Of a stretch of DNA of 25,023 nt, positions 1 to 22,514 are shown piece by piece. Positions within the stretch are counted from its first letter, which is position 1. Each line of letters begins with the position of its first letter. Made by a program: the position numbers and the translations under genes. The notes under the pieces were generated by a model, which worked only from the letters and a program-made list of their open reading frames with translations, ran no database searches and had not been told where the DNA came from. Source of the stretch: a virus; the IMG/VR virus record IMGVR_UViG_3300042389_000266, positions 1-25,023 of that record, one strand, 5' to 3'.

Positions 1-3000
1 CGAACAAAGTTCCATTCTGGTTCTGATGGCTTAATAAACAAAAAGTTTACTAATAGAATTGTAACTACAGATTATTTAACTTTATCTGTAGGTAACATAG
101 TGTATGTTGGAACAATTACTGATGGAGATATTACTTATGCAAAAGCGCAAGCATCTCCTGCTGGAAATTATGATGTAATTGGTATAGTGGAATCTATTAG
201 TGGTGGTTCTGCAACAATAGTGTTGAATGGTGAATTTGAACTCAATGGAGTTAGTTCCCTAGAACCAGGCATAAAATATTACTTATCTCAAACAACTGCT
301 GGTCAATATGTTCAAGAAGGTACATATTCAACTGGTATAATAAAGCCAGTATTTGTTGCAATTTCTTCCAGCAAGGGTATTTTGCTTGGTGCAAACGAAA
401 ATGCAAACATATCAAGTGTATCTGTCACCGATCAAGCACTTAATGAAGAAACTCTAGAAGTAAATTCTCCAAACTTTGATCTTAAGTTTGTTGCTGGACC
501 AAATATTGATTTGGATATTAATTCCAACAACGAAGTTGAAATACGAGTAGTAGATCTTGCTGGTTCTCAAGACACATTTAGAACTATTACTGTTAATGGT
601 GTTGGTTCCGATGGTGATGGTTCTGTGGTTGCTGATGTTCCAAATGATACTTTGACATTTACTAGTAGTACTTTGTCAATCACAGCAAACTCCACTACAG
701 ATACTATAAATTTTGAAGCACCAAATGCATTTACTACATTTAAATTCAGTGATGGAACAGATTATTCTTATGTTGCTGAATCAACATCAGATACTTTACA
801 ATTAATTGCTGGAGATGGTGTCACCTTCACACAAAACACCGATGATTCTATAATCATTTCGGCAACTGTTGAGGGTGGAGTTGCCCCAGAAAATATTACA
901 TATTCTGGAGCATATCAAGTATTGGTTTCCGATTCATCATCTGATGGAATGGCAGTATCGCTTTTAGGTGGTGATGCAGATTCGTTCACAATAGGTTATG
1001 GTTTGGGAACAACAAATATTGCTTTGGATCATACTAAAGAAATAACACTTTCCGCAGGAACTGATGAATACACATATGATGGTGATCTTTATAATTTAAA
1101 CTCTAGCGGTGACTGGCCAACAACAACTTGGTCAAAATATTTACCAGATCAACTTGCTGGTTATATGGTGGGAAGAATTACAACAAGTGCTTTAGGTGAT
1201 AATAGCACATTCCCTGATAGTAAAATAAGAAGACTTTCAAGAAGAGATGTCAGACACTTTTTGGGTATAGCCCAAGAAGGATTTATTGATAATATTGGAA
1301 GTGTTTTTAATCAATGGACAATAGACGGCGGGTCAACTTATGTTACTGCAAACGATAAATCTGGTGTTCTTAACATACAGGCGGGTGCTGGTATATCTCT
1401 TTCAAATCCCGGCGCACCAGATAGAATAGTAATCACAAATACAGGTGTTGCTCAAAATGCATTTGGTAGCGTAATAGTTAAAAATTACAATGGTAGCACG
1501 ATAGATTCATTTGATGCTGCTAGTTCTTCAGATAATTTTACTTTAAAATCTGGTAGATTTGTTACAATTGACACAGATACCAATAGTGATACTGCAATTT
1601 TTGATATTTCTATACCAGACGATTACTCAATATTGGGTAACCCAGGCACAACAGATGGTATGGGTATAATTAGTCTTGCAAGTAATAGTTACTCTTTATT
1701 GGGTCGTTCTGGTGGTCCAATTGAAGCAATTACAGCAGATACTCTTAAGTGGACTGGAGTAACTTCTGGTACTTTAACTTCTCCCGAAATGGAACTACCA
1801 TATTTTGGTGTAGTACAAGTTGGAACAGCAGGCACACCAACCATATTGAACTCATATGGTGTTGGTAAAGGTGCATTAAGAGTTGAAGCTGGTTCTGGTG
1901 TAACTTTAACAGCAGACACCAATACAAATACAATTACTATTACATCTGAAGGTGGTCCAGGCACTACAACCGAAAATGCACTAAGAACACTATTTGCTAA
2001 TAGTTCGCAATATAATTTTAGTTCAACTTTTAATAGAGTCAGATTAAATAACGGTAATGGAATTGCCATAACAAGCAGTTCAGATTCAACCGACGCAATA
2101 TTGAATTTTAATCTAGCATCTATACCAAACAACAGTGTTCTTGCTAATACCAATAGTATTGACGCGGTTCCTACACATTTGAGTTTTGCTACCGATCAAA
2201 TTTTAGGTAGACTTGGTGGTTCTGGTGCATTGGGTGCGTATCCCATTAAGTCTGGTACTGGAACAACATTAAGAGAACGACTTGACATAAGACATTATGG
2301 TAAGGTTCAAATATCAGATGGAACCACAGTAACAGATTTAACAGCTCTCGGTAGCGGCACTGCAACCTCAACGACAGGTGCCACTTTACGATTAAGAGCT
2401 GGATCAAATATTACATTGTCTGGCTCACTTTCCAACGATAGCACATCTATAATAACAATCACCGGAGCAAATCCATCATTAATTTTAGATACTAATCCAG
2501 AATTTTCTGGAAGCGTATTCAGTGGTACTGGAAGACAAAATGTTATAACATATGGTGATCCATTTATTGGTGTCGTTCCTAGCGGTAAAGCAATAGTAGA
2601 ACGACACAGAACATATGATGTTTCTAATGCAAATAATGAACATTTTATAACATTTAGAGAACTACAATTACCTCTAATTAATAGTTCACTTTCTACTTTT
2701 GCCACAGTAACTTCTCCAGTTACAGGACAAAGCATAAAAGCAGATTCTGGTAATGCAACTCAATACATGTATGCGGGTGGGTATACCTTAAATGTTAGAA
2801 ATCTTTCAGCCGGTTCAACAACTCAAGGTAATTTGACTTTTGTTGGTGATGCAATTCGTTTAAGTGCAACTGGCACCATACATTTAGAAGGAACTGGTAC
2901 TGCTGTAAACTTGAATGCTAAAGTTTTAAGAGGTACTTCTAATACATTTAAATTTGGTGCTGTTGGAGAATGTATTCTGTCATCAACAAATACAAGCGGT

Positions 3001-3606
3001 ACAGTTAGTAGTACAAATTTTATAATGCACAGCGGTTCTTCATTCATGTTGCGTTTTGGTGCAACACCGATAACTCAACTACTTTTCACAGATGAAGATC
3101 AAGATGGTGAAGTAAGAATAACCACAACTGGAACAGGAGCAAATAAAAAAGTAGTATTTGATACAGATGTTGATTTTGGTGTAGTTAGTGGCTCTACAAG
3201 AACAATTGATTTTGCAAATGCTACGATAGTAGGTTTAACTGTATCTTCGCACAGTTCAACACACGACGCCGTTGATAGTGCCAGTTCCAATACTGTAGCA
3301 AGTATTGGTACAGATCCTATACAGGCTTGGCAAGTGGGTGGAGTTGCGCGCGGTCAACCCACCATGCTAAATACTATCGGTATAGTAAATGGAGATGGAC
3401 AGTACGATTTTGATTTAAGTGCTGTATCCAAAGCACTCCTCTATAGTGGTTCTACCACATACAATACTACAAATTATACCAGTAGTATAACAGCATCGAC
3501 AAAAGGACCACTTTACTTAGTCGTTCCAAGTGATACGGATACCACAAATCCTGCTGCATGGCCTCCAGGTCCTCCAGGTCAAATTATTCTCATAAGAAAG
3601 CCATAA
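1..3606 (+). CDS. Large repetitive tail fibre-like structural protein, 5' end missing
   Basis: The reading frame is open from the first base of the window, so the gene starts upstream; the GTG at 100 is only the first possible internal start. About 1201 residues are visible. The protein is rich in Ser, Thr, Gly, Asn and Asp and almost lacks Cys. It carries many divergent copies of a beta-strand module of the form aGsGvtlt-(D/N-rich turn)-ntitIs, for example near 811-870, 1381-1440, 1885-1947 and 2395-2463. Such modules are typical of phage fibres and adhesins. The C-terminus ends in a short Pro/Gly stretch (WPPGPPGQ). The next gene starts 4 bases after the stop. Its position ahead of the neck genes fits a virion fibre. 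I cannot match it to a named T4 fibre gene, and the receptor or partner is unknown. Virion fibre is inference from composition and repeats. Confidence 0.7.
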   Translation, partial: RTKFHSGSDGLINKKFTNRIVTTDYLTLSVGNIVYVGTITDGDITYAKAQASPAGNYDVIGIVESISGGSATIVLNGEFELNGVSSLEPGIKYYLSQTTAGQYVQEGTYSTGIIKPVFVAISSSKGILLGANENANISSVSVTDQALNEETLEVNSPNFDLKFVAGPNIDLDINSNNEVEIRVVDLAGSQDTFRTITVNGVGSDGDGSVVADVPNDTLTFTSSTLSITANSTTDTINFEAPNAFTTFKFSDGTDYSYVAESTSDTLQLIAGDGVTFTQNTDDSIIISATVEGGVAPENITYSGAYQVLVSDSSSDGMAVSLLGGDADSFTIGYGLGTTNIALDHTKEITLSAGTDEYTYDGDLYNLNSSGDWPTTTWSKYLPDQLAGYMVGRITTSALGDNSTFPDSKIRRLSRRDVRHFLGIAQEGFIDNIGSVFNQWTIDGGSTYVTANDKSGVLNIQAGAGISLSNPGAPDRIVITNTGVAQNAFGSVIVKNYNGSTIDSFDAASSSDNFTLKSGRFVTIDTDTNSDTAIFDISIPDDYSILGNPGTTDGMGIISLASNSYSLLGRSGGPIEAITADTLKWTGVTSGTLTSPEMELPYFGVVQVGTAGTPTILNSYGVGKGALRVEAGSGVTLTADTNTNTITITSEGGPGTTTENALRTLFANSSQYNFSSTFNRVRLNNGNGIAITSSSDSTDAILNFNLASIPNNSVLANTNSIDAVPTHLSFATDQILGRLGGSGALGAYPIKSGTGTTLRERLDIRHYGKVQISDGTTVTDLTALGSGTATSTTGATLRLRAGSNITLSGSLSNDSTSIITITGANPSLILDTNPEFSGSVFSGTGRQNVITYGDPFIGVVPSGKAIVERHRTYDVSNANNEHFITFRELQLPLINSSLSTFATVTSPVTGQSIKADSGNATQYMYAGGYTLNVRNLSAGSTTQGNLTFVGDAIRLSATGTIHLEGTGTAVNLNAKVLRGTSNTFKFGAVGECILSSTNTSGTVSSTNFIMHSGSSFMLRFGATPITQLLFTDEDQDGEVRITTTGTGANKKVVFDTDVDFGVVSGSTRTIDFANATIVGLTVSSHSSTHDAVDSASSNTVASIGTDPIQAWQVGGVARGQPTMLNTIGIVNGDGQYDFDLSAVSKALLYSGSTTYNTTNYTSSITASTKGPLYLVVPSDTDTTNPAAWPPGPPGQIILIRKP

Positions 3607-3610
3607 TATT

Positions 3611-3745
3611 ATGTTTGTAAGAGATAGTGGAAATACACCAAGAGAAATATCTAGAATATTTGTCAGAGATAGTTCTGGAAATCCTCAAGAAATTTCAAAA
3701 ATATATGTCCGCGATGGTAGCGGTAATCCTATATTAGTTTTTGAT
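3611..3745 (+). repeat. Three tandem 45-bp (15-codon) repeats encoding VRD modules
   Basis: The first 45 codons of this gene are three consecutive 15-residue units, each with the core (F/Y)VRD followed by SGN-P and, in the first two, EIS. The units differ at many synonymous positions, so the repeat is old or under protein-level selection rather than a fresh duplication. Confidence 0.8.
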
Positions 3746-5986
3746 AATACCACTGTAGTTGTTCCTGATTTATGTCCAAGTTGCACTGCTGGTAGTGTTT
3801 ACTATTTTACTGTGGGTGGTAGTGGTACGGGGAATACCATTTTCACATTGTCTTTGGGACAATCATATGCTAATTATCCTCAAATTAGCAGTACCGTCCA
3901 AAATGGAACAAATACACCCTCAATCAATATACAAAAAGATTATTGGTCAAAAGTATCAATAAAATATGACATTTTAAAAACAAATAGTGAAAATTTAGAA
4001 ACACAAACCACTTATTATAATACTCTTGAACAAAATTTAGATAGTAGTTTTTGTGAATGGTGCATAACGGATTTTTCTATTACTTCGCTTTTTCCAACTC
4101 TTATGGCAGAAACGTTATTGGGAACTTCTATTGATGGACAACCAATTACAGGTTATGGAAATTTAAATAATTATCCTGTGCTTCCGGGCTACATTATAGT
4201 GGATTATAAAACATACAACAAACGAAGCACGGTATTTTCTATTATGAATATGCCTCAAATTCAATGGACCACTCATGGTGTAAATTACACAAATCCAGAA
4301 ACATCACAGGTTTTGGTTCCTTTTGGTGCATATGATTCTCGATTTGCCCCAGATACAGTCCCTAGTACCAGAAGTAGTACAATTTACCCGTTTTATAACA
4401 GGCCTGTGTTATTAAATGTTCCAGATTTACAACCCGGTGGTCAAGGGTTTAGTCATAATAGTTTATGTGGGCAAGAGTATTGCGGTGGTATATTTACTCA
4501 AGAATTTTTTGAACGTTGGGCATTTGGTTCATGTTGGAATTGGGGTTCTGGTGGATCTCAAAGATTTTTTGAATCCATTATCCCATCTGGCATAAACATA
4601 GATCCTTGTATTACTGGTGATGTTTTTCTACCACCAAATGGTAGCACTTTCCCAACAGTAAATAATGGTACTGGAGATGATTGTAGACTATTTGTTGGTG
4701 GTTACGATCAAACCGATTGGGAAGGAATTAATCCATATTCTTGGATTCTTTATTATGAAAACGGTGCAACAGGAAACACTATACCTGAAGTATTATCATC
4801 TGCAAAACCACAAGATTGCTGTACTAGTTGTTTTTATGGACCAGTAGAATCTTCTACCCCAAACACAAATGATATGTGCAGACACATATATCAAATACCA
4901 CCAATCAATTCTTTAACTCCTCCTAGTACAAAATTAGATTTCTTTGACAGTATTGGTACTGGAGCCGTTCTTGGACCAGAAATTCAGGGTTCTTCCTCTA
5001 GTGCAGTTATTCGTTATACTCTTCCTGCGTATGTTACGCTAGATCCTGCATTAAAATCAAAAATAGTAAAAATGTTTGCCGTGAATTCTAGCAATTCTAA
5101 TATAGATTCATTTATAAATGCTGGACCAGATTTGTTTGGTGATGATTCGGGTAGCACACTAACGACAGAAGAACTTTCTGTTTGGAGAGCTATTAGTGGG
5201 TTCATGGGTTTAAATATTAAAAATGGATTACCTTTAGAAAATTTTGAAAGAGTTTATTTATCATCTTCATCTTTTTATTATGAAGAAAACAGATTTGATG
5301 CTAATCCATTTGGTCCAGCACCACAACTTTCATTTTATCCCGCAGCACCAATAGGCATTTCTACAGTATCTGGTGCCTCTTCTCTTGGACAATATCCTTT
5401 GATATGGTGGAGTATGTCTGGATATCCAACAGAACAATCAACTCATTATATTGTATTGGAATTAGAATTTAATGCAGAAAACTGTGCGACTTCTATAGCA
5501 AATAAAAATGATGCATTCCGATTAGAAAATTTAAGAAAAATACTAAAAGGTATACAGTTTTATCCAGTACAATTTTCTTGCAAAAATATGATAGGTTTGA
5601 AATATCAAACAGGAATTGCGACTCCCACAGAAGTAGACGCAATTAGACATTTTCCACATCCTGCATATGCAGAATTAGTAATCGATAGTACAGTACAAAA
5701 TGGTATAGATGTAGTTACTGGTACAAATGTAAATGGTTGTGGATTTGTTGATATATTATGGACTAATCAATTGATACCAGTAGATCAGGGTGGAACTGGT
5801 GTAGTAACAAGTACTACTTCTTCATCACAACAAACGAGGGAACAAAAAACATTACTTTATAATTATAAGTTTATTTCCAGTAGTGTTCCTGTTGCACGTT
5901 ATACCTTTATGAGATTAAGATTACCATCAATGACATATAGCAAATTCTTAACCAAATATTATAAACCACAAACTACTATTTCTTGA
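3611..5986 (+). CDS. Probable virion structural protein with N-terminal VRD repeats and CxxC pairs
   Basis: The protein has 791 residues. It opens with three in-phase 15-residue repeats (consensus (I/M)(F/Y)VRDsSGNPqeIS, residues 1-45). Similar VRDG/VKDG-type repeats occur at the ends of other phage tail structural proteins, from memory. A long body without a recognised domain follows, rich in Ser, Asn, Tyr and aromatic residues. Cysteine pairs stand out: CPSC at residues 55-58, CEWC at 148-151, and further on a CGQEYC cluster and a CCTSC cluster. No signal peptide or membrane segment is seen. It lies 4 bases after the fibre gene, with only a weak ribosome-binding site, so translation is probably coupled to it. 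A sigma70-like promoter overlaps its stop codon and serves the next gene. Its role is probably tail fibre, fibre connector or baseplate-associated. The exact function is unknown. Confidence 0.6.
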   Translation: MFVRDSGNTPREISRIFVRDSSGNPQEISKIYVRDGSGNPILVFDNTTVVVPDLCPSCTAGSVYYFTVGGSGTGNTIFTLSLGQSYANYPQISSTVQNGTNTPSINIQKDYWSKVSIKYDILKTNSENLETQTTYYNTLEQNLDSSFCEWCITDFSITSLFPTLMAETLLGTSIDGQPITGYGNLNNYPVLPGYIIVDYKTYNKRSTVFSIMNMPQIQWTTHGVNYTNPETSQVLVPFGAYDSRFAPDTVPSTRSSTIYPFYNRPVLLNVPDLQPGGQGFSHNSLCGQEYCGGIFTQEFFERWAFGSCWNWGSGGSQRFFESIIPSGINIDPCITGDVFLPPNGSTFPTVNNGTGDDCRLFVGGYDQTDWEGINPYSWILYYENGATGNTIPEVLSSAKPQDCCTSCFYGPVESSTPNTNDMCRHIYQIPPINSLTPPSTKLDFFDSIGTGAVLGPEIQGSSSSAVIRYTLPAYVTLDPALKSKIVKMFAVNSSNSNIDSFINAGPDLFGDDSGSTLTTEELSVWRAISGFMGLNIKNGLPLENFERVYLSSSSFYYEENRFDANPFGPAPQLSFYPAAPIGISTVSGASSLGQYPLIWWSMSGYPTEQSTHYIVLELEFNAENCATSIANKNDAFRLENLRKILKGIQFYPVQFSCKNMIGLKYQTGIATPTEVDAIRHFPHPAYAELVIDSTVQNGIDVVTGTNVNGCGFVDILWTNQLIPVDQGGTGVVTSTTSSSQQTREQKTLLYNYKFISSSVPVARYTFMRLRLPSMTYSKFLTKYYKPQTTIS

Positions 5987-6010
5987 CTTTTATTTACTTG
6001 TCTATATAAT
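5983..6010 (+). promoter_or_regulatory. Sigma70-like promoter for the 115-aa gene
   Basis: A TTGACT -35 box (5983-5988) and a perfect TATAAT -10 box (6005-6010) are separated by 16 bases. The start of transcription would fall near 6017, about 20 bases before the AAGGAG ribosome-binding site (6028-6033) of the gene at 6039. The -35 box begins inside the previous stop codon region. This is an unmodified host-type or phage early-type promoter, unlike the TATAAATA late boxes elsewhere. No transcript data are available, so use is inferred. Confidence 0.65.
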
Positions 6011-6038: not shown

Positions 6039-6386
6039 ATGAAAGTTAGATTGATTGACATTTATGGATCTGTTTCAGTTTTAAACAAATTAGTAGAAGA
6101 ACCACTTCCAACCAAAATTTCATTTAAATTAATGAAATTGCTAAATGCTTTAAATGCTGAAGTGAAACTAGTAGAAGATCAAAGATTAAAACTAGTTAAA
6201 CAATATTCTGAAGACGGTAATACCGTGTCTGAACAAAACAAAGAGGCATTTATAAAAGAATTTAGTGAATTCTTAAATGACGAGATAGAAGTAACATGGG
6301 AACCACTTAATGTAGATATTTTGGGTGATTCTATAAAACTTTCTGTAACCGATTTAGCAAAAATTCAATATTTGTTTAAAGATTAA
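6039..6386 (+). CDS. Small phage protein of unknown function, faintly DUF1617-like
   Basis: The protein has 115 residues and no membrane segment or signal peptide. It is predicted to be mostly helical in the middle (about residues 25-65, Leu/Lys/Glu-rich, heptad-like) with a strand-rich C-terminal part. The pattern of a short N-terminal start, PLPTKISFKL, a Lys/Glu helix and a C-terminal LSVTDLAKI reminds me of the DUF1617 family of small phage proteins, but this is from memory and weak. The start is supported by an ideal AAGGAG at 6028-6033. It is the only gene between the fibre and neck genes with its own sigma70-like promoter, so it may be made earlier than its neighbours. It is followed by the gp13 control hairpin. 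The function is unknown. Confidence 0.75.
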   Translation: MKVRLIDIYGSVSVLNKLVEEPLPTKISFKLMKLLNALNAEVKLVEDQRLKLVKQYSEDGNTVSEQNKEAFIKEFSEFLNDEIEVTWEPLNVDILGDSIKLSVTDLAKIQYLFKD

Positions 6387-6409
6387 GTAAACAACATTTA
6401 CAAAAAAGG

Positions 6410-6448
6410 ATCTCCTTGGTTTTATAAATAATGTAGAACCAAGGAGAT
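6410..6448 (+). promoter_or_regulatory. RBS-masking hairpin upstream of gp13 with late promoter in its loop
   Basis: ATCTCCTTGGTT (6410-6421) and AACCAAGGAGAT (6437-6448) form a perfect 12-bp inverted repeat around a 15-base loop; G-U and A-U pairs can extend the base outward. The right arm contains the AAGGAG ribosome-binding site of gp13 (start at 6456), and the loop contains TATAAATA. RNA reading through from upstream would fold and hide the site. RNA started at the late promoter, near 6436, would lack the left arm. The same logic is known for T4 genes e, soc, 49 and I-TevI. The sequence is seen; the function is inferred. It could also act as a weak terminator, but only a short T tract follows. 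Confidence 0.75.
6423..6430 (+). promoter_or_regulatory. T4-type late promoter box (TATAAATA) for gp13
   Basis: This is a perfect match to the T4 late promoter core recognised by the gp55/gp33-modified host RNA polymerase. It lies 25 bases before the gp13 start codon, inside the loop of the masking hairpin, so initiation would occur near 6436. It probably drives the gp13-gp14-gp15 block and onward. Confidence 0.75.
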
Positions 6449-6455
6449 TTTACAT

Positions 6456-7280
6456 ATGGCAAAACCTTCAACAAGGGAACAACTTAAAGATTATTGTCTA
6501 AGACGACTCGGTTATCCTGTTGTACAAATCAACGTGGATGATTCGCAAATAGAGGATCGTGTAGACGATGCTTTACAGTTTTTTGCCGAATACCATTTTG
6601 ATGGTGTAGAGAGAGTTTATTTAAGAAAACAAGTCACTCAGCAAGACATAGAGCGGGGTTATATAGATTTAACCCAACCAACTTTGGCTGCAACAGACGA
6701 TGGTATAGAAATTAAAGCAGCACCCGCATTAGACCCAGATGGAAATTCAATAATTAGTGTAATTCGTTGCTTTCAATTATTTGATACTCTGGGTGGTTTG
6801 GGTATGTTTGATGCAAAGTATCAAATCGCTTTAAATGACTTATATGGATTAAGAACCAACACATATGGTGACTCATTAATTGGTTATAACATAACAAGAA
6901 GTCATATGCAAATGCTTCAGGATATGTTGACCCCCGAAAAGATGATTGAGTTTAGCCGTGTTACAAACAGAATTTATGTGGAAACAAATTGGTCAGAAAA
7001 AATGACTAAGGGTGATTACTTGGTATTTGAGGCATATAAAATTCTTGATCCTTCGTTGTATCCAGAAATCTATAATGATCGTTTATTAAAGATGTACTTG
7101 ACAGCTTTAATTAAGCAACAATGGGGATTGAATTTATCGAAGTTTAGCGGTATGAGTTTACCCGGTGGTGTTTCATTTAATGGTGCTAACATGGCATCTG
7201 AAGCAAAAGCGGAAGTTGAAAAAATAGAAAACGAAATTCAAGCCAAATACGAACTCCCACCACAAGGATTTATAGGATAA
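6456..7280 (+). CDS. 13: Neck protein gp13
   Basis: The protein has 274 residues (T4 gp13 about 309). The N-terminal region with REQLKDYCLRRLGYP, the V-D-D-SQIEDRVDDAL helix and the following FFAEYHFDGVERVYLRK segment is characteristic of gp13 in T4-like phages. gp13 works with gp14 at the head-tail joint: after DNA packaging it binds the portal vertex, seals the head and makes it competent for tail attachment. gp14 begins 1 base after its stop, as in T4. The start is fixed by AAGGAG at 6441-6446, 9 bases upstream. Expression is probably controlled by the late promoter and hairpin just upstream. Identification is from remembered family features and gene order; confidence is high. Confidence 0.92.
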   Translation: MAKPSTREQLKDYCLRRLGYPVVQINVDDSQIEDRVDDALQFFAEYHFDGVERVYLRKQVTQQDIERGYIDLTQPTLAATDDGIEIKAAPALDPDGNSIISVIRCFQLFDTLGGLGMFDAKYQIALNDLYGLRTNTYGDSLIGYNITRSHMQMLQDMLTPEKMIEFSRVTNRIYVETNWSEKMTKGDYLVFEAYKILDPSLYPEIYNDRLLKMYLTALIKQQWGLNLSKFSGMSLPGGVSFNGANMASEAKAEVEKIENEIQAKYELPPQGFIG

Positions 7281-12847: not shown

Positions 12848-13393
12848 ATGGACATTAGCAAGTTTACATCTAAATTCGATGGCGGAGCAAGATCAAATCT
12901 GTTCCAATTCAGAGTCAGTAATTTACCAGCAGGCGTTCCTGCATTCAATGCAGATGATCAAATCATCCACGTTAAAAGCATTCAATTGCCAGAAACAACA
13001 GTTGGTGAAATTCCTGTAAATCACATGGGAAGAATTTACAAATTCCCAGGCGATAGAGTTTATAATGACGTATCACTTACTATCTTGAGTGATGGTACTG
13101 ATATGCGCGTAAGACATTTCTTCGAAGCATGGAACCATGTTTGGAATCGTCATTTTGCAAACGTAGGATTGTTGCCAAATGATGCAAACTTGAACGCTGT
13201 AGTTGAATTAATTCAATTGGATCGCAATCACAGTCCAATCAGAACATATAAACTGCAAAAAGCATGGTGCAGTGATGTCTCTGCCGTAGATTTGTCACAC
13301 GACAACAATGACGCTTTAGTTGAATTTACAGTAACACTGAAGTACCACTTCTTCGAAGTAGACGGTAAGAACGGTCTTCACTTAAGACGTTAA
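12848..13393 (+). CDS. 19: Tail tube protein gp19
   Basis: The protein has 181 residues (T4 gp19 163). The N-terminal DISKFTSKFDGGARSNLFQF, the VKSIQLPETTVGE strand and GRIYKFPGDRVYNDVSLTIL are typical of the tail tube family. It forms the inner hexameric tube through which DNA passes. The gene follows gp18 by 18 bases with its own GAGGGAG ribosome-binding site. A second protein with a similar fold pattern is encoded at 21987-22514. Confidence 0.94.
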   Translation: MDISKFTSKFDGGARSNLFQFRVSNLPAGVPAFNADDQIIHVKSIQLPETTVGEIPVNHMGRIYKFPGDRVYNDVSLTILSDGTDMRVRHFFEAWNHVWNRHFANVGLLPNDANLNAVVELIQLDRNHSPIRTYKLQKAWCSDVSAVDLSHDNNDALVEFTVTLKYHFFEVDGKNGLHLRR

Positions 13394-15697: not shown

Positions 15698-17191
15698 ATG
15701 GCAAACAATTTTAAAATATTTGTAAGTTCTTTTCCTACAAAGATTGCATTTAAAAGAAGTAATGCAATTGATGTCTATCAAATAAATAAAATTGAGTACA
15801 CAGAAGCAAAAATTATTGAAAATCTTACGTTAGCCGGAGAACTGTACGGAGCAGGAACTACGGGTATAAATGTAGGGGAATCTTGTACATCAAATTTAAT
15901 TGGTTGTGATGAAGAATTCGTAGCACCAACTCCAGAATGTGAAACCGGGGGAACGGGACCACGAGGGCCCGCTGGACCTGCTGGACCACAGGGACCTACC
16001 GGACCACAGGGACCACCGGGTGCCGGAGGATCAAGAATATTCTGTGGTTATTTGGGAGGACCACCAAAACCACCAGAAGGTAAAATATCAGTTGATTGTT
16101 TAAAAAATGCAACAGGTTATGTTGTTAGTAGAGCACCTGGTCCAACTTGCAATGGTGGAGGAAATCCATTAGCGTCTGGTAGTGGTGCAAATTTAAACGA
16201 ATTTAAGAAAAGATTTTTTACTACAGATGAGTACTATGTTATAGGAGATGTTAATGGTTGCGGATATTCTACAGTACCATTAGCGGATGGGTGTACAACA
16301 GGCAACACTCACTATGAACATAGAACTGTATATAATGGTTATAAATCTAATGGTATTTGTTATTCATCGCAGCAATGGGATTTTGGTAAATACACACAAT
16401 CCGTTCTAGGTACTACACTAACGGAAGAAAATAGAAGTTCTGTGGCTGCTTCGGCAAGAACAGGCGGTTCCAACCAATTAATTTTTATACCAACCCAACA
16501 AATATATGGTGGTGCAGAAACTGCAAGATTGGATGATTGGTTCGATGTTGTTGGAGGTGGAACTGGTAATGGATTGTATGATATCTTGGCAGATTACAAT
16601 CCAGATTGTGGTCCAGAAGGACCACCAACAGCACCACCAATAGCAGATCAGGGATCTACTATTTGTGCAGATGGAATAGAACCATCCGGTGCGCCGTTGC
16701 CTGGAGATGAAAATGAATGTAATGGTGGTTGCAATAATCCAATATCAAATTGCGATGAAGTTACTGATGGAGATATATTCATCGATGCAACAAATGGAGT
16801 AATGTATTTTTACTCTGAAGGAGCGTGGTCCTCGCAGGGAATCCCTTTAGGGGGTGAGTCTGATTGTACAAAACAATCAGACTGCAAAGACAAAACTGGT
16901 GCTGGATCTTGCGAAGGAACCGTTACTTGTTTTTGTCCACCGGGTGAAAATTGCGGCGATTTTGCGGGATGCACAAGTCCAGAAGGTTGCTCTGATTGCG
17001 AAGCAGCAAAAGCAGCAGCAATAGAAATTTTAAAGGCATGCACAAATGGTACATGTGCTGGTGCAATTGCGGCGCTTGGTGGGGAATGTCCATCGAGTAG
17101 TGATTGTGCAGATTGCATTAGTTCTTTCTATTGTTATTATTATAATGGTTATCATTATCCCGGAATAATTGTGGCGCCCGGTGGAGTTTAA
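15698..17191 (+). CDS. Collagen-like, cysteine-rich fibre or surface protein
   Basis: The protein has 497 residues. The N-terminal approximately 60 residues are strand-rich, perhaps for attachment. Residues 87-110 are eight Gly-X-Y triplets, Pro-rich, of the kind that forms collagen triple helices in phage fibres. A central region follows, with a GDIFIDATNGVMYFYSEGAW motif common in collagen-like phage tail proteins. The last approximately 110 residues contain 15 cysteines, including FCPPGENC and CSDC-type spacing, and end in a Tyr-rich and Gly/Pro tail. Such a Cys density is unusual for a phage virion protein and suggests disulphides outside the cell or metal binding. The gene follows its neighbour by 1 base and is followed by a glycosyltransferase-like gene. 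It is probably a trimeric fibre or a head or tail decoration. The location on the virion is unknown. Confidence 0.65.
   Translation: MANNFKIFVSSFPTKIAFKRSNAIDVYQINKIEYTEAKIIENLTLAGELYGAGTTGINVGESCTSNLIGCDEEFVAPTPECETGGTGPRGPAGPAGPQGPTGPQGPPGAGGSRIFCGYLGGPPKPPEGKISVDCLKNATGYVVSRAPGPTCNGGGNPLASGSGANLNEFKKRFFTTDEYYVIGDVNGCGYSTVPLADGCTTGNTHYEHRTVYNGYKSNGICYSSQQWDFGKYTQSVLGTTLTEENRSSVAASARTGGSNQLIFIPTQQIYGGAETARLDDWFDVVGGGTGNGLYDILADYNPDCGPEGPPTAPPIADQGSTICADGIEPSGAPLPGDENECNGGCNNPISNCDEVTDGDIFIDATNGVMYFYSEGAWSSQGIPLGGESDCTKQSDCKDKTGAGSCEGTVTCFCPPGENCGDFAGCTSPEGCSDCEAAKAAAIEILKACTNGTCAGAIAALGGECPSSSDCADCISSFYCYYYNGYHYPGIIVAPGGV
15956..16027 (+). repeat. Collagen-like Gly-X-Y coding repeat, eight triplets
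   Basis: Twenty-four codons encode consecutive GPR, GPA, GPA, GPQ, GPT, GPQ, GPP and GAG triplets. The DNA here is clearly more G+C-rich than the rest of the cassette because of the Gly and Pro codons. It is short for a collagen helix, so it would act as a trimerising linker. Confidence 0.85.
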
Positions 17192-17198
17192 TTTAATT

Positions 17199-18170
17199 AT
17201 GAAATTGATACACAGTTTTTCAACTAATATTGATGATACACAAAACACTAAAGAAGCAATAAACTCAAAAAAATGGGGAGACAGTCTATCCAAAAGAAGA
17301 GTTCATTGGTATTGTTGGGTTTGGTCTTTTTTATCTGCCTCTAAACATTCCGATCAATTTGAGTTATATACTGATGCTATGGGTGCAGATATTTTAGTTG
17401 GTGCATTAAATTTACCATACAGTAGAGTTAATTTGACATTAGATGGTATAAACAAAAAATACTTGTATCTTGGGAAAATAAAAACATATGCAGTTCAAAG
17501 AGAACCGTTTTTACACATGGATGGTGATGTTGTTTTTAGAGAATTTTTCCCCACCAATTTGCCTAATCTATATGCACAACAATATTCATGGTGGTTAAAG
17601 GATTTATACCAAAACATTTTAGTACTATTGTTTAATAATAATTTTGAAGCAATACCCGAAGAATTTAAAAAATTAAACATTCTAACAATGAAAAATTCCG
17701 AGTTTGGAACTCTAAATGCGGGAGTATTTGGTGGAACTGATTTAGAATTAATACGAGAATGTGCAAATAAAACTTTATTGTTTTTTGAAAATACACACAA
17801 TACAAAATTATTAAATGATCTGCTGGATGAGTTTAGTCTTATGACTTTTTATGCAAATAATAAAAAAGGTAGTACATATACACAAACCGCATTATTTTCT
17901 TTATTTGAAGAGTTTTTACCAGTTTTAATGTATAAACAAAAGTATAAAAATTTAGATGGGTTAAAAACCGTATTAAATGAAGAAGACATAGAAAAAGAAC
18001 ACACAGTAGAATTAAATATTGATAGAAGTACAAAGTTAAAATATGTGCATTTAATGGATGCAAAACGTGATGATGGAGAACCAAGCATAGCATATAGACA
18101 ACGCTTTATCCAAAAGTTCAGAGAAGAGTATCCAGAGTGGGCAGCCAAAGTCGATACATATCTAAGTTAA
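17199..18170 (+). CDS. Glycosyltransferase-like protein (DUF6734-type)
   Basis: The protein has 323 residues. I chose the ATG at 17199 (MKLIHSFSTN) because an earlier in-frame ATG at 17169 lies inside the previous gene. Signs of a GT-A glycosyltransferase fold are a first strand KLIHSFS, YTDAMGADIL (residues 57-66), the acidic HMDGDVVF motif (106-113, a DxD-like metal and nucleotide-sugar site at D108-D110), NAGVFGG (173-179), which in such enzymes lines the acceptor side, and a C-terminal HLMDAKRDDG. The order matches DUF6734 proteins as I remember them. It is inferred to transfer a sugar in the host cytoplasm. Placement directly after the collagen-like gene suggests a virion protein as substrate, but lipopolysaccharide or another host glycan is also possible. 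Codon use is very AT-rich, unlike gp23. Confidence 0.65.
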   Translation: MKLIHSFSTNIDDTQNTKEAINSKKWGDSLSKRRVHWYCWVWSFLSASKHSDQFELYTDAMGADILVGALNLPYSRVNLTLDGINKKYLYLGKIKTYAVQREPFLHMDGDVVFREFFPTNLPNLYAQQYSWWLKDLYQNILVLLFNNNFEAIPEEFKKLNILTMKNSEFGTLNAGVFGGTDLELIRECANKTLLFFENTHNTKLLNDLLDEFSLMTFYANNKKGSTYTQTALFSLFEEFLPVLMYKQKYKNLDGLKTVLNEEDIEKEHTVELNIDRSTKLKYVHLMDAKRDDGEPSIAYRQRFIQKFREEYPEWAAKVDTYLS

Positions 18171-21944: not shown

Positions 21945-21976
21945 AGGGTTCCGAAAGGAACCCTTTATTCTTTTAT
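21945..21976 (+). terminator. Intrinsic terminator after gp23
   Basis: AGGGTTCC (21945-21952) pairs perfectly with GGAACCCT (21957-21964) across a GAAA tetraloop, followed by the T-rich tract TTATTCTTTT. This is a textbook Rho-independent terminator. It ends about 10 bases before the next start codon. A second, weaker 6-bp hairpin (CACTAA/TTAGTG, 21909-21927) overlaps the gp23 stop codon. Confidence 0.9.
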
Positions 21977-21986
21977 AGATACTATT

Positions 21987-22514
21987 ATGAGCAATCTAAT
22001 AACAAACGCAATACAAAGACAGCCAAAGTCGATCAACCCAATGCAGTTGAACGAATATAAAATGGTATTGCATAGAACTCCTCATATAGTTTATTTCTGT
22101 CAGTCAATCAACCTACCCGGTATCCAATCTAGTCCTATATCGCAGCCTAGTCCCTTTGCCACCGATATAAAGAGGACTCCAGGCAAGGTAACGCATGATG
22201 ATTTAAATGTTAAATTCATTGTAAACGAGGATATGTCTAATTGGTTAGAATTGTATAATTGGTTACGAACAATTACGCCAATTGATACATTCAATAATCA
22301 AGTTCAAGAAACACAAAGATTTTCTGATATTTCAATAATAGTGATGAACAGTAAGTCTTTAGGTTTATTGCATTTCACATATAGAGATTGTTTTCCTTTG
22401 GCAATATCTGGATTAGATCTAGACAGTACTGTTAGTGATATTAATCCTGCGATTGCTGGAGTAACATTTGCATACAGCGGGTTTACAGTAGAAACCCTCA
22501 GACAGAACATTTAA
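21987..22514 (+). CDS. Tail tube-fold structural protein, gp3 position
   Basis: The protein has 175 residues. The segments VYFCQSINLPGI, PFATDIKRTPGKVTHDDLNVKF and VNEDMSNWLELYNWLR follow the tail tube (gp19) superfamily pattern: a strand ending in LPG, a GDK-like turn, then DDL-x-V-x-F-x-V(D/N)E. It is not a recent copy of the gp19 at 12848-13393. In cyanophage-type T4-like genomes, as I recall, gp3 (tail terminator, about 176 aa in T4) lies here between gp23 and uvsY, so this may be its counterpart; tail terminators and tubes share a fold. The start has no clear ribosome-binding site and lies just after the gp23 terminator, so expression probably depends on read-through or on an unseen promoter. 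Confidence 0.65.
   Translation: MSNLITNAIQRQPKSINPMQLNEYKMVLHRTPHIVYFCQSINLPGIQSSPISQPSPFATDIKRTPGKVTHDDLNVKFIVNEDMSNWLELYNWLRTITPIDTFNNQVQETQRFSDISIIVMNSKSLGLLHFTYRDCFPLAISGLDLDSTVSDINPAIAGVTFAYSGFTVETLRQNI

Follow-up and report, generated by a model that had tools for sequence, protein, structure and literature searches.

In bacteriophage T4, a hairpin hides the ribosome-binding site of the lysozyme gene e, and the late promoter of this gene is located within the 5' part of the hairpin (McPheeters et al. 1986, reviewed in PMC3014915). According to the cited passages of that review, translation of e from the long early RNA is poor, and its late RNA does not include the 5' strand of the hairpin. 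A late promoter combined with a sequestering hairpin is likewise described, in the passages of PMC2988022 cited here, for the leaders of I-TevI, I-TevII, I-TevIII, segB and Aeh1 mobE. In addition, T4 soc, 49, 25 and 26, which include two baseplate genes and one capsid gene, are given in the cited parts of both articles (PMC3014915, PMC2988022) as late genes repressed by RNA structure at their ribosome-binding sites. The known cases, as the cited part of PMC2988022 presents them, are late genes that share long transcripts with early or middle genes. In the passages cited, this control is tied to lysis, to homing endonucleases and to a small number of genes for capsid, baseplate and nuclease proteins.

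The late promoter motif occupies positions -13 to -6 relative to the transcript start (PMC1524935). It reads CTAAATA in Aeh1, and its first base is loose in other phages (PMC1524935); in cyanophages the motif has been reported as NATAAATA (PMC2984593).

Here, we describe the leader of a gp13 neck gene in a stretch of viral DNA of 25,023 nucleotides (positions 1 to 25,023 of IMG/VR record IMGVR_UViG_3300042389_000266), referred to below as the window. This leader very probably contains a cis-acting RNA switch of the T4 gene e and I-TevI kind, built into the late promoter of gp13, and the protein is probably translated only from messages begun at that promoter. The mechanism itself is known; its presence at gp13 and in this lineage is new, as far as the searchable non-subscription literature goes. 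A control known from T4 would thereby reach a core neck gene of an uncultured lineage, with covariation over dozens of sequences, and infection RNA-seq could directly reveal the transcript starts and the timing rule that follow from the switch. It also raises the question of why neck protein synthesis should be barred from read-through RNA.

The arrangement at gp13 is the same as that of T4 e, and it is like those of the I-TevI, I-TevII, I-TevIII, segB and mobE leaders. Gene e differs in being a lysis gene with two late promoters, and its repression is experimentally shown in the passages cited, whereas for gp13 we infer it. The I-Tev, segB and mobE genes, as described in the cited text, are homing endonuclease genes, some of them intronic and carrying an autorepressor site; gp13, in contrast, is a core virion gene and involves no endonuclease. 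Genes soc, 49, 25 and 26 are not neck genes, and gp13 of T4 itself has no such hairpin.

Table 1. Features of the gp13 leader and of the surrounding genes (window coordinates)
Feature	Position	Strand	Remarks
Two long ORFs upstream of the 115-aa gene	100-3606, 3611-5986		no family match
Sigma-70-like promoter, TTGACT-N16-TATAAT	5983-6010	+	11 of 12 consensus bases; conserved in the near group
115-aa gene, phrog_1401	6039-6386	+	E 4.7e-7; directly 5' of the hairpin
Left arm (anti-Shine-Dalgarno strand)	6410-6421	+	ATCTCCTTGGTT; absent from RNA begun at 6436
Late promoter motif TATAAATA (-13 to -6)	6423-6430	+	motif match; position rule from PMC1524935
Predicted late transcript start (G)	6436	+	from the -13 to -6 rule
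Right arm	6437-6448	+	AACCAAGGAGAT; contains the gp13 Shine-Dalgarno AAGGAGA (6441-6447)
gp13 neck gene (head-tail adaptor Ad2), controlled gene	6456-7280	+	phrog_211, E 5.6e-37; tblastn to annotated gp13 neck proteins
gp14 homologue	7282		
gp15 homologue	7998		
Small terminase	8846		
Large terminase	9291		
Sheath	11003		
Tail tube, gp19-type, phrog_45	12848-13393		beside the sheath gene
Portal	13425		
Prohead protease	18484		
Scaffold	19174		
Major head protein	20458		

The genes that come after gp13 are structural genes of T4 type (Table 1). A distant DNA search in annotated phages returned just short, weak pieces. Between the portal and prohead protease genes, at the position of T4 genes 67 and 68, tail-fibre-like and unmatched ORFs occupy 15698-18170.

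Structure of the gp13 leader and cost of opening the ribosome-binding site

The initial annotation had described a perfect 12-bp inverted repeat with the gp13 ribosome-binding site in its right arm, and both statements are correct: the arms are fully complementary, spaced by 15 nt and extend to 15 nt each if one mismatch is allowed, and the Shine-Dalgarno sequence lies inside the right arm, 5' of the ATG at 6456. The folded leader RNA has an energy of -28.3 kcal/mol (z = -6.0), which was equalled in none of 200 shuffles. Its minimum-energy helix joins 6407-6426 with 6432-6451 across a 5-nt loop and is longer than the arms first described. Because this helix takes half of TATAAATA into its upper stem, the earlier placement of the late motif in the loop applies to the 12-bp arms only and fails for the minimum-energy fold. 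The claim that the arms are very unlikely to be fortuitous was borne out. The window contains no second perfect inverted repeat of 12 bp or longer with a loop of at most 30; 200 dinucleotide shuffles had an average of 0.08 such repeats per window, and in none of them did a repeat of this kind enclose TATAAATA. TATAAATA taken alone occurs at chance frequency (4 in the window versus 3.1 expected). Rfam, searched with the whole window at the curated gathering score, gave no match.

The predicted start at 6436 falls 3' of the left arm. RNA entering from upstream would have both arms and would lock the gp13 Shine-Dalgarno in a stable helix, with little gp13 made; in the window, such RNA is probably early, coming from the sigma-70-like promoter at 5983 via the 115-aa gene. 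Late RNA polymerase would start at about 6436 and leave the left arm untranscribed, so that the Shine-Dalgarno would be free and gp13 translated. We infer from sequence the start at 6436, the early read-through RNA with its timing, and the translational repression.

Genes having a Shine-Dalgarno and a late-promoter motif were scanned for the free energy required to open the Shine-Dalgarno, once for RNA entering from upstream and once for RNA begun at the predicted late start. The opening cost at gp13 of the window is 14.5 kcal/mol in the long RNA versus 1.1 in RNA from 6436; the difference is at most 0.9 for the remaining TATAAATA genes of the window (18203, 19174 and 20458). A cost of at least 10 was reached at one of the 22 scored gene starts, that of gp13. 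When applied to T4, the scan recovers known cases, as I-TevII (11.1), e (10.1), 26 (9.9), 49 (5.2) and segB (4.9) all score, and 51 scores 8.4. The literature case soc reaches just 2.0, and the scan is therefore not a complete detector. Long contigs of four relatives gave differences of 14.4, 13.4, 12.3 and 6.0 at gp13, and the only other promoter-bearing gene above 4 in these contigs is a 478-aa gene of the L021 contig (7.3).

Two other loci came to attention in the scan. The 478-aa gene (L097:7938-9374, minus strand) has weak tail-fibre matches and carries TATAAATA in its promoter-in-hairpin leader. In T4 (NC_000866), the divergent hub genes 26 (116428) and 51 (116479) both score as promoter-in-hairpin genes within one short intergenic stretch; the T4 passages cited above mention 26, and not 51, as repressed by structure.

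Paired changes among relatives

Compensatory changes in the arms of related phages had been named beforehand as a test of the hairpin, and the outcome was strongly positive. Five protein scans of viral contigs yielded 131 distinct gp13 upstream regions, of which 52 form the clade of the window, with about 60-100% identity and including CATAAATA or CTAAATA variants of the motif. Such variants were counted in relatives because PMC1524935 and PMC2984593 report variation of this kind. In each of these 52 distinct sequences, the ribosome-binding site is paired within a helix that extends across the late-promoter motif (for example, TCTCCTCTTTATAAATAACAGATAAAGAGGAGA in L017, TCTCCTTATATATAAATATTATATAAGGAGA in L025 and TCCTCCGAAAAACATAAATATTAGAGAAGATTTTTCGGAGGA in L292). 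The motif is retained, or varied as C/A-ATAAATA or CTAAATA, and remains within the helix despite varying loop length and arm sequence.

Changes on both sides were found at 11 of the 14 pair positions. Pairs were counted on 36 distinct arm pairs (504 cells): 83.7% of the cells are paired versus 62.6% after shuffling, and 120 are changed on both sides versus 47. The covariation score is 0.545 versus 0.189 in shuffles, and it drops to 0.12-0.20 when the partner is slid by one to three columns. When whole right arms were dealt among the sequences in 10,000 trials, at most 352 of the 504 cells were paired, compared with 422 observed. Placing the arms by the own fold of each sequence favours pairing, but the shuffles, made on the same arms, still fall far below the observed values. 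The steadiest part of the arms is the Shine-Dalgarno and its complement, a CTCC core being kept opposite the Shine-Dalgarno. These data show that the hairpin is maintained across the clade through compensatory base changes.

Upstream transcription and alternative readings

The sigma-70-like promoter claimed upstream of the hairpin is present, 473 bases 5' of the gp13 ATG. A consensus match alone is not evidence here, because the sigma-70 scan gave fewer sites (39) than the shuffles (53.5), and the site at 5983 was therefore judged by its conservation. L004, L006, L007, L015 and L016 retain both boxes although their spacers have diverged; this retention is explained in part by the overlap of the first box with the stop codon of the preceding gene. 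In L004, the site matches the consensus at 12 of 12 bases, and the 108-kb contig of this relative has four intergenic 12/12 sites, this one included, versus 0.5 expected. Early read-through RNA in the subclade of the window would probably originate at the promoter at 5983. Since the 115-aa gene lies behind a sigma-70-type promoter, the window would fit the pattern of late genes on early or middle transcripts set out in the cited part of PMC2988022.

A profile search of the upstream ORFs placed a phrog_1401-like gene just 5' of the hairpin wherever the sequence of a clade member reaches far enough upstream; the association of this gene with the hairpin may simply reflect shared descent. The 115-aa protein has a confident helical model (pLDDT 91), which in a viral fold search resembled many siphovirus and myovirus proteins, all uncharacterised. 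No match was obtained by tblastn against annotated phages or by a PDB fold search, and none that could be trusted in NCBIfam and Pfam.

In further relatives, which make up most of the clade, the sigma-70-like site before the 115-aa gene is absent, and the gene starts some 10-22 bases after a fibre-like gene. The early promoter is accordingly well supported in the near group only, and the early/late switch proposed in the initial annotation may apply to just part of the clade. Since a convincing promoter of this kind is limited to the nearest relatives, the general statement is one of read-through RNA versus RNA from gp13's own promoter; in subclades without the sigma-70 promoter, the upstream RNA may be late RNA. 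A ribosome terminating at the upstream stop codon might disrupt the helix in compact subclades, in which only a few bases lie between this codon and the left arm; the corresponding distance in the window is some 20 nt.

These observations bear on the possibility that the read-through RNA is itself late and that the switch makes gp13 output independent of a late fibre operon located upstream. The close succession of the fibre and 115-aa genes in most of the clade speaks for it, as does a late-like CATAAATA before a 1959-aa ORF well upstream and in the same orientation on the L004 contig. However, a conserved sigma-70-type promoter directly precedes the 115-aa gene in the near group of the window, and the T4 cases described in the cited passages of PMC2988022 sit on transcripts with early or middle genes. 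We regard this reading as a real possibility, though not the probable one; it shares the RNA mechanism with the early/late account and differs from it in purpose only.

It is unlikely that the hairpin is mainly an intrinsic terminator of the upstream gene, overlapped by a late promoter and hiding the ribosome-binding site incidentally. The stem is strong, and a U run follows it in some subclades: of the 8 bases next to the stem on its 3' side, 4 are T in the window and 5-7 in L008-L020, L036, L116-L127 and L223. Over the clade, however, this count ranges from 0 to 7, and many members with 0-3 T after the core (for example, L021, L025, L030, L118, L281 and L293) still pair the Shine-Dalgarno. 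Moreover, a terminator scan of the window did not pick up the gp13 hairpin, and a pure terminator needs neither a Shine-Dalgarno in its arm nor a promoter in its loop. Because the U run is present only in some subclades, termination would be at most an added role.

The repeat brackets a promoter, and I-TevI is known to repress its late promoter at its own operator (PMC2988022, in the part cited), which could suggest a DNA operator for a repressor of the gp13 late promoter. This is very improbable, as the arm letters vary freely while pairing persists, whereas an operator would conserve the letters, and the most constant part of the repeat is the Shine-Dalgarno with its complement. Finally, although short inverted repeats are common in this AT-rich genome (four of at least 10 bp in the window versus 1.1 expected), a chance repeat has a negligible probability given the rarity of 12-bp repeats and of promoters inside them in shuffles, and is refuted by the clade-wide covariation.

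Distribution of the hairpin over the gp13 tree

In a FastTree phylogeny of gp13 with 139 rows, the clade of the window comprises 51 rows, with scores of 4 kcal/mol or more in 49 and of 2.9 and 3.8 in the remaining two. Outside this clade, the trait is scattered and most gp13 genes are without it. L331, L333, L335 and L336 score 9-13 kcal/mol, their left arm overlapping the promoter at its downstream edge, and their sister group L339-L344 lacks the trait. L171 and L182, also outside, score 12-15 kcal/mol with a CTAAATA promoter; the gene 5' of gp13 in L182 matches a glycosyltransferase family. No strong gp13 hairpin was found in L037-L080, a group at 43% identity, or at gp13 of the annotated T4-like phages (T4 and 14 phages), a set that includes T4, P-SSM2, HTVC008M, Melnitz-3, S-SRM01 and S-SZBM1; Mosig has TATAAATA with a weak version (3.4).

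Several independent origins of the gp13 hairpin look likely from this fast tree with long branches. We suggest only tentatively, and consider it rather doubtful, that gp13 is a recurrent target of such gates in T4-like phages, in differing geometries, where it lies behind non-late genes and untimely neck protein would harm assembly.

In a set of distant phages (L145, L147, L150-L154, L157-L160, L170, L175, L176, L181, L183, L185 and L299-L302), NATACATA stands upstream of gp13 in place of NATAAATA and is perhaps their late promoter motif. In the window, a strong hairpin, GAGGGTTCCGAAAGGAACCCTTTATT, lies at 21945-21966, 3' of the major head protein gene, and is followed directly by a TATAGATA motif and a second gp19-type tail tube gene (phrog_45, 21987-22514). 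The hairpin and motif resemble a terminator with a late-type promoter behind it.
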